From an uncultured Clostridia bacterium (GTDB lineage: Bacteria; Bacillota; Clostridia; Lachnospirales; CAG-274): a DNA stretch of 46,734 nt. Position numbers and translations under genes: made by a program. This document shows, piece by piece, positions 4,575 through 29,742 of this stretch. Position 1 is the stretch's first letter; each line of letters begins with the position of its first letter. A model generated the notes under the pieces. The model had not been told where the DNA came from. It did not search any database and was given only the letters and a program-made list of their open reading frames with translations. The stretch spans positions 1 to 46,734 of the forward strand of contig CANRNM010000003.1 in the NCBI GenBank assembly GCA_947631975.1, written 5' to 3'.

Positions 4575-4922
4575 TGTTTTTGCCTCCTTTTTTATAATGT
4601 ATTATAACAAAACAAGCACAAAAAGGCAATATTAAAATATAACAAAAAGTACTATATATAGTGCCGTTCCAAATTAAACAACACTAAATATGCCGTTTTT
4701 GGGATATAAATTTTTTAAAAAAATTTTTATTTATTTTACATTTGAAGCCTTGGCTCAAAAAATAAATACCGAGCTTGATTTTTTTGCGATATGCCAAAAT
4801 AGGCATAAAACTTGTACAAACCGTTTGCCGTGCATAAAAAATACAGCGGTCAAAAAATTTTAATTTATAAAGCAGGTTTAGATTTTAAGCACAAAAAGTA
4901 TTGTAAAAAATGCACAAAAAAA

Positions 4923-4945
4923 GACGCCGTCAAAATGACGGCGCC
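4923..4945 (-). terminator. Duplicate copy of the permease terminator hairpin, with an intact U-tract on the minus strand
   Basis: GGCGCCGTCATTTTGACGGCGTC followed by TTTTTTT; identical to the copy at 5198-5220. Confidence 0.8.
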
Positions 4946-4946
4946 T

Positions 4947-5194
4947 CAGACTGTCGAAAAAGTATTTATAAAAAATTTTTCTATAACTGTCTCTTAGATT
5001 TAGCGGAATAAAGAACGACATAAAAGGCTCCCTCCGGGAGGGAGCTGTCGCCCGTAGGGCGACTGAGGGAGAATGCGCAACTAACAATATTATACTCCTT
5101 CCACCGCCTTCGGCGGTCCCCCTCCCTCGGTGAGGGAGGCTTACCTAGCATTCACAGAACAACTGAAGGATCAAAAAGCATTTTATCGACACGC
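4947..5194 (-). mobile_element. Terminator-nested non-coding element, copy A (~248 bp)
   Basis: Minus strand: left end GCGTGTCGATAAAATGCTTTTTGATCCTTCAGT, right end TAAATACTTTTTCGACAGTCTG; flanked by identical 27-bp AAAGACGCCGTCAAAATGACGGCGCCT at 4920-4946 and 5195-5221. Confidence 0.6.
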
Positions 5195-5197
5195 AAA

Positions 5198-5220
5198 GAC
5201 GCCGTCAAAATGACGGCGCC
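5198..5220 (-). terminator. Gene-proximal terminator hairpin of the NCS2 permease
   Basis: GGCGCCGTCATTTTGACGGCGTC hairpin 15 bp after the permease stop. Confidence 0.75.
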
Positions 5221-5235
5221 TTTATTATATTTGCT

Positions 5236-16343: not shown

Positions 16344-16509
16344 CTTTTTGCACCTCCTTCTGGTCTTTGACCCTTGCCCTCGGCAAGAGTAAGGATAAAA
16401 TTACCTGTGATTTGCCACGAAGCTTATTTTATCATATAAATATAAGGAAGTCAAGAGGTTTTTTGCAGGCTTTTTGCAGCGCTTTTTTGGAAAATGTGAT
16501 AGTCTTTGC

Positions 16510-16538
16510 TTGACATATGGTATAAATTATGTTATCAT
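16510..16538 (+). promoter_or_regulatory. Sigma70-type promoter for a candidate antitoxin RNA
   Basis: TTGACA - 17 nt - TATCAT. Confidence 0.65.
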
Positions 16539-16544
16539 ATAAGC

Positions 16545-16640
16545 ACAAAGGGAACAACATACAGTTGTCCCTCTAAAGTTTGGTTATATTAAATAGCCGT
16601 TATTTAGTTGGAGAAGAACTGAAAGCGGCTATTTTAATAT
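16545..16640 (+). ncRNA. Candidate antisense (antitoxin) RNA with two stem-loops, the second a possible bidirectional terminator
   Basis: GGGAACAACATACAGTTGTCCC hairpin, then AAATAGCCGTTATTTAGTTGGAGAAGAACTGAAAGCGGCTATTTT, directly downstream of the plus-strand promoter. Confidence 0.5.
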
Positions 16641-16718
16641 GCAAAGAATTAAATATGTAAATATCAATACATCTCTGCAAAGCAGCAGAAACAGTATCAA
16701 TTTTAAATACTTTTTCAT
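16629..16718 (-). CDS. Candidate 29-aa hydrophobic type I toxin-like peptide (not in the ORF track)
   Basis: MKKYLKLILFLLLCRDVLIFTYLILCILK*; stop codon overlaps the terminator stem; AGGGGG upstream; an in-frame upstream ATG would give 37 aa, so the start is uncertain. Confidence 0.5.
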   Translation of the reverse strand: MKKYLKLILFLLLCRDVLIFTYLILCILK

Positions 16719-16866
16719 TATACATACTATTCCCCCTTTCATAGAATCCCAAACATTTTTATCCTATAACATAGGCATCAAACCTTTGAAATCATATTAA
16801 GAGGAGGGACAACCGCATTAAGTCATACCCTTTGTGAGATCAAGGCTTTTGCCCATCCCTAAAATT

Positions 16867-16895
16867 ATTATAGCATAATATGGAAGCTGTTTCAA
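16867..16895 (-). promoter_or_regulatory. Sigma70-type promoter for the candidate toxin mRNA
   Basis: Minus strand TTGAAA - 17 nt - TATAAT, convergent with the plus-strand promoter at 16510. Confidence 0.6.
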
Positions 16896-24393: not shown

Positions 24394-24418
24394 ACAGAGG
24401 GAGATTTCTCCCTCTGTT
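24394..24418 (+). terminator. Gene-proximal terminator hairpin of the pectate lyase (U-tract truncated)
   Basis: ACAGAGGGAGATTTCTCCCTCTGTT followed by CTGCG rather than a U-tract. Confidence 0.75.
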
Positions 24419-24869
24419 CTGCGTTTCGATAAAATGTTTTTTTTGACCCTTCAGTCGCCCTTCGGGTATCAGAACTTTCCCTTCGGGAAAGCGATGCCTT
24501 ACGGCATCGTCGGATTAATCTTTCCGATTCAAATGCCAGCTTCCCTGCATTGCACCGAAAGATTTATCGGACGCCGCCTAAAGTTGGGGACAGTCCCAAC
24601 TTCGCAGGACAGTCCCCTTTGACCGATAGGAACAGTAAAACAGGGCGGCGGCTTTCGGCGTAGCCGAAAGTGCTGACTTCGCAAGGACGCCTTATAGTGT
24701 TGTATCCTCTGGGTGGAAGAAATCTGCCGTTAGATTTTAAAACATTATAAGCCGTCCTTTAGCCCGTTAGGGCGTAAGGGAAGGGGGACCAATTCAAGCA
24801 AAGCTTGCTTTGTGATGAATTGGTGGAAGGGTTTATATTTGGTATAAATTTACTTTTTCGACAGTCTGC
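24419..24869 (+). mobile_element. Terminator-nested non-coding element, copy B (~451 bp)
   Basis: Left end CTGCGTTTCGATAAAATGTTTTTTTTGACCCTTCAGTCGCCC; right end TATAAATTTACTTTTTCGACAGTCTGC; flanked by the identical 25-bp terminator hairpin on both sides. Confidence 0.6.
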
Positions 24870-24898
24870 ACAGAGGGAGATTTCTCCCTCTGTTTTTT
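24870..24898 (+). terminator. Duplicate copy of the pectate lyase terminator with intact U-tract
   Basis: ACAGAGGGAGATTTCTCCCTCTGTTTTTTT. Confidence 0.85.
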
Positions 24899-29478: not shown

Positions 29479-29652
29479 TGTAATGTCCTCCTTTGAATAG
29501 TATTAATGCTTTAATTATAACATAAAAAAAGCATATCCGTCAATATATGTTAGCATCTTACCCTATTATACCGACATATTTTCGTGAAGTATACCGCTTG
29601 ACGAAGCAGACAAAATCTGTTAGCATTATAATATAGTATTGCTACGTGTCGA

Positions 29653-29742
29653 TAAAATACTTTTTTGACCCTTCAGTCGCCCTTCGGGTGTCAGAACTTT
29701 CCCGAAGGGAAAGTTCTGATAGGCGTTAGCTTGACTGAAGGG
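29653..29742 (+). repeat. Partial/degenerate copy D of the terminator-nested element family
   Basis: ACGTGTCGATAAAATACTTTTTTGACCCTTCAGTCGCCCTTCGGGTGTCAGAACTTTCCCGAAGGGAAAGTTCTGATAGG...TTGACTGAAGGGG. Confidence 0.6.

Follow-up and report, generated by a model that had tools for sequence, protein, structure and literature searches.

A non-coding element between two copies of a terminator hairpin in a Clostridia genome: a probable IS1182-type MITE with whole-hairpin target duplication

The window, a DNA stretch of 46,734 nucleotides from an uncultured Clostridia bacterium, is contig C3 of a 2.02-Mb genome (151 contigs, 92% complete). It contains a non-coding element of 450-451 bp (24419-24868/9), which is very probably a non-autonomous transposon (MITE) of the IS1182 type that, as judged from sequence comparisons, duplicates the whole terminator hairpin serving as its target.

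The element is bordered by two copies of the 25-bp sequence ACAGAGGGAGATTTCTCCCTCTGTT, at 24394-24418 and 24870-24894 of the + strand, which are identical in all 25 positions. In shuffled versions of the window the expectation for a 24-bp match of this kind was 0.00, even if three mismatches were allowed. Each copy folds into a hairpin, one with 11 pairs and the other with 10. Only the right copy is followed by a T-run on the + strand (TTTTTTT), and for this reason it alone scored as a + strand terminator, predicted to be the working one; the left copy, whose + strand T-run has been lost, scored as a terminator on the - strand only. The element itself (24419-24868, + strand) is an enlarged copy of the A subfamily described below, with the left end CTGCGTTTCGATAAA and the right end TTTTTCGACAGTCTG. 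It has no open frame of at least 100 amino acids, and its interior is strongly self-folding (z = -6.6). The initial annotation had described the paired terminator copies, the element of about 451 bp between them and the loss of the U-tract on the left, and all of these were confirmed.

The same holds for a second complete copy with the same ends (copy A), which occupies 248 bp on the - strand (4947-5194) and is bracketed by the 27-bp hairpin AGGCGCCGTCATTTTGACGGCGTCTTT, with the left-end copy of the duplication at 5195-5221 and the right-end copy, followed by a T-run on the - strand, at 4920-4946. Two partial copies were missing from the initial annotation: the left part of a copy cut by the contig edge (1-95, - strand), which adjoins the hairpin AAACACCCCTTATCGGGGGTGTTT, and a truncated left half without hairpin duplication (29640-29713, + strand). 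The terminator at the window start has an ortholog in the genome G006 (locus L093), which holds an element of a different subfamily in the opposite orientation, indicating that this site was hit twice independently. The window also has a copy of a second dispersed family (16506-16878, - strand; about 400 bp, 14 matches in the genome), which has a conserved ORF of about 41 amino acids, carries promoter-like boxes at both ends that are directed towards its interior, and is often bounded by GGGCTGAGG..TCAGCCC terminators. It resembles a small gene that has an antisense partner.

The elements belong to a large family, dispersed in gut Clostridia, whose ends read (C)TGCGTGTCGATAAA and TTTTTCGACAGTCTG. 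The genome contains dozens of these ends: TGTCGATAAAAT occurs there 35 times and TTTTTCGACAGTCTG 32 times in exact form, and element ends were found about 40 times. The sequence GCGTGTCGATAAA was counted 40, 18, 29 and 52 times in the genomes G000 (the window's own), G003, G005 and G006, respectively, while controls with the reversed pattern yielded 0-1. Outside this genome the ends, in multiple copies, were found in three of the six other species of the genus that were examined and in all five examined species of a sister genus. Window-type elements are 85-450 bp long and non-coding. The subfamilies have only their ends in common, the interiors being palindromic in A and C, RNA-like in B and short in D. 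The short inverted motif that had been noticed in the ends, TGTCGAwAAA, is indeed present (core TGTCGA...TCGACA). The left and right MITE ends agree at no more than 11 of 15 positions, which speaks against the IS1182 reading given below. None of the solo left ends that were examined in the genus belonged to a large element with the same left end. At four loci (L032, L051, L087, L377) terminators are followed by TTTTTGCGTG, which resembles a relic of the MITE left end, but no element is present there. REP/REPIN, BOX, RUP and Correia-type repeats are likewise small, dispersed, intergenic and mobilised in trans, but their ends, targets and duplications differ from those of the window elements.

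An autonomous relative was found by allowing any distance between the right end and a matching upstream hairpin. At this locus (L155, genome G011) the order is hairpin, B-type MITE, hairpin, a 1,511-bp IS, hairpin. The IS has the ends CAGTCTGTCAATAAA and CAGTCTGTCAAAAAA and lies in a 25-bp hairpin site, which also holds a MITE. Its ORF encodes a transposase of 475 amino acids, which matched the IS1182 model NF033551 with 417 bits (cut-off 270) and has the domains PF13751, PF05598 and PF01609. The initial annotation had recommended looking for such a full-length, transposase-encoding relative. Homologues of the transposase occur across the order in elements of 1.5-1.65 kb with CAGACTGT-type ends. 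The end of one IS1182-family element, CAGACTGTCGAAAAAGT (L348), is identical to the MITE right end, which is also similar to the IS ends at L349, L375 and L346; the match of the left end is weaker.

The IS1182-family elements have the same type of target and duplication as the MITEs. Six of them (L349, L354, L356, L358, L365, L375) are flanked by perfect whole-hairpin duplications of 22-35 bp. Among 12 plasmid-borne copies from Clostridia, Bacilli, Fusobacteria and Proteobacteria, six have perfect duplications of 21-30 bp, and whole-hairpin duplications around members of the family span Clostridia to Rhizobium (21-35 bp). The IS1182-family elements with CAGACTG ends (ISEfa7-like ones and those at L349, L354, L405, L406, L409, L410, L411) have matching CAGACTGT.. 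ends and a hairpin foot at each end, and many show perfect whole-hairpin duplications; they differ from the 85-450-bp non-coding window elements in being autonomous and about 1.5-1.7 kb long. At six further IS1182 loci (L352, L353, L360, L408, L412, L414) the hairpins abutting the ends differ between the two sides. Because an autonomous relative occupies one of these hairpins and whole-hairpin duplications surround IS1182 elements, the window-type elements are best read as IS1182-mobilised MITEs with the feet of hairpins or cruciforms as targets. The MITE family almost certainly uses a transposase of the IS1182 family.

No IS1182 transposase gene was found in G000, G005 or G006, and the case for mobilisation in trans therefore rests on the relatives. 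The lack of the gene in the host could mean that some other transposase cuts these ends and that their likeness to IS1182 ends is convergent. We regard this as improbable: the identity of the MITE end with that of an IS1182-family element, the presence of MITE and IS in the same hairpin at L155 and the common type of duplication speak against it, and since the assembly is fragmented and 92% complete, a repeated IS may be missing from it.

Still less probable is mobilisation by a TnsB-like transposase of the IS1202 family, with which the initial annotation had speculatively linked the long duplications. Members of this group do make duplications of 16-28 bp and have TGT...ACA ends (PMC10132070), comparable to the core TGTCGA...TCGACA. 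However, no IS1202/ISNCY_2-type transposase was found in the genus, where the model NF033594 had no match, and none of 48 family genomes gave a match above the cut-off. No hairpin target has been reported for IS1202 elements, no conserved target was found for the long-duplication group (PMC10132070), and both the ends and the whole-hairpin targets match IS1182-family elements instead, the family to which the autonomous relatives belong. The proposal of a trans-mobilised MITE that duplicates whole terminator hairpins was supported by the duplications, the empty sites and the transposase-encoding relative, whereas its link to IS1202 was not.

When the genome and its relatives were searched with the element ends and the flanks compared, as had been proposed, 75 of the 91 complete copies with both flanks available had a direct duplication, nearly always of a whole hairpin, and a perfect stem of at least five pairs lay inside 69 of these 75. 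The clean duplications (n = 54) measured 18-34 bp, their length following that of the stem in the sequences compared, and in 47 of the 54 the midpoint lay no more than one base from the hairpin dyad. The median hairpin score of the duplications was matched or exceeded by just 0.25% of random segments. The 16 copies without a scored duplication count against the IS1182-MITE reading; most of them nevertheless carry a hairpin on each side. In three cases (L093, L161, L177) the two hairpins have diverged, and in five MITEs (L034, L035, L039, L043, L052) they are unrelated. These copies may be recombinants, or products of an event in which the two ends attacked different hairpins; in a search for recombination partners, L035 was matched by a related hairpin from a different species, and no other convincing partner turned up. 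At two loci (L082 3060-3780 and L101 3010-4375) a third copy of the hairpin is found past the element and separated from it by a small gene, which gives the impression that the gene, too, is bracketed by hairpin copies. A third hairpin at L040 was first read as a sign of a second transposon, but it belongs to a dispersed small-gene family with its own GGGCTGAGG..TCAGCCC terminators.

Unoccupied sites having one terminator (empty sites) were also found, as the initial annotation had suggested. In G005 the end of the corresponding gene is followed by one copy of the terminator of the window element, T-run included; a similar lone hairpin is found in G006, where the match is short. The site of L157 (G011) has an uninterrupted counterpart, 75% identical, in L171 (G014). 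At L055 a D-type copy is nested in an internal hairpin of an A-type element, which is uninterrupted in L043. The five MITEs with two different hairpins would fit the notion that paired hairpins arose as separate terminators, or by ectopic duplication, and that the repeats between them are unrelated, but the exact duplication in most copies, the precise junctions with the element ends and the one-hairpin empty sites make it very unlikely, and for the typical copy the empty sites refute it.

The B-type elements (L031 1003-1239; L204-L224; L155 3867-4103) are MITEs with a conserved, covarying fold. They have six helices in common and conserved unpaired stretches. In 20 sequences 18 pairs changed on both sides, compared with 9.2 in shuffles; in 28 diverse copies, whose alignment was fitted to the model, this was true for 50 of 57 pairs, compared with 31.5 in shuffles. 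Of 392 genomes from the order, 71 contained the fold according to a covariance model, and among 20 distant copies a hairpin-like duplication is still recognisable in 7. Rfam had no match at the gathering threshold, only weak ones at chance level (E up to 1), and searches of plasmids and phages with B-type DNA gave no matches. A viral contig in IMG/VR (L225, 782-803) carries the conserved core of the fold. Paired bases in hairpins of mobile DNA can be kept by correction at the DNA level as well as by RNA function. It is conceivable, but we hold it for the less likely case, that the B subfamily is a mobile structured RNA with a fold of about 176 nt and conserved unpaired bases, present in multiple copies across the order, transcribed by read-through from captured terminators and having an independent function, either in regulation or in aiding its own spread. 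Terminators are also the neighbourhood into which group IIC introns insert, without target duplication; together with the RNA-like fold this could point to an intron-like or other RNA-based retroelement, a very improbable origin given the inverted-repeat ends, the long target duplications, the lack of any Rfam match at gathering, introns included, and the similar insertion of the A, C and D subfamilies, which lack the fold.

For the IS1182-mobilised MITE we propose the following pathway. A DDE transposase of the IS1182 family, supplied in trans, would excise or copy the element via its ends CTGCGTGTCGATAAA and CAGACTGTCGAAAAA, and insertion would take place at the foot of a terminator hairpin. 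As the stagger would be the hairpin itself, gap repair would leave a full hairpin on either side of the element. Upstream, the U-tract would be lost, and the downstream copy would keep it, so that the gene would still be terminated, now after the element. The cruciform intermediate, the cleavage chemistry, the supply in trans and read-through into the element are what we infer in this scheme.

The scheme corresponds to pathway b in Figure 13 of PMC5678879, where a joining reaction at the 5' feet would cause the stem-loop to be duplicated in its entirety. According to a review mentioned in the same paper, palindromes are the targets of some IS1182 members. The staphylococcal IS1272 / TnSha1 likewise has an IS1182-family transposase and targets hairpins, often terminators, with no primary sequence consensus, but the hairpin is deleted or replaced on insertion and no duplication results (PMC4923244, PMC5678879). 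The elements described here, by contrast, are MITEs of high copy number, and they duplicate the hairpin in full. We found no report of whole-hairpin duplication in the literature searched (ISfinder was outside the search, and its curators may hold cases), and as far as we could find it has been documented previously only as a hypothetical branch of the published model (PMC5678879).

The family thus supplies numerous natural cases, empty sites included, of transposition in which the target duplication is an entire hairpin, and in which the size of the duplication would be set by DNA structure and not by a fixed stagger. It opens the drawn but undocumented branch of the IS1272 model to testing, and through it a transposase family becomes connected with an RNA-like fold that is widespread and as yet unnamed. 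For the host, it would explain how dozens of insertions could take place downstream of genes without loss of termination.
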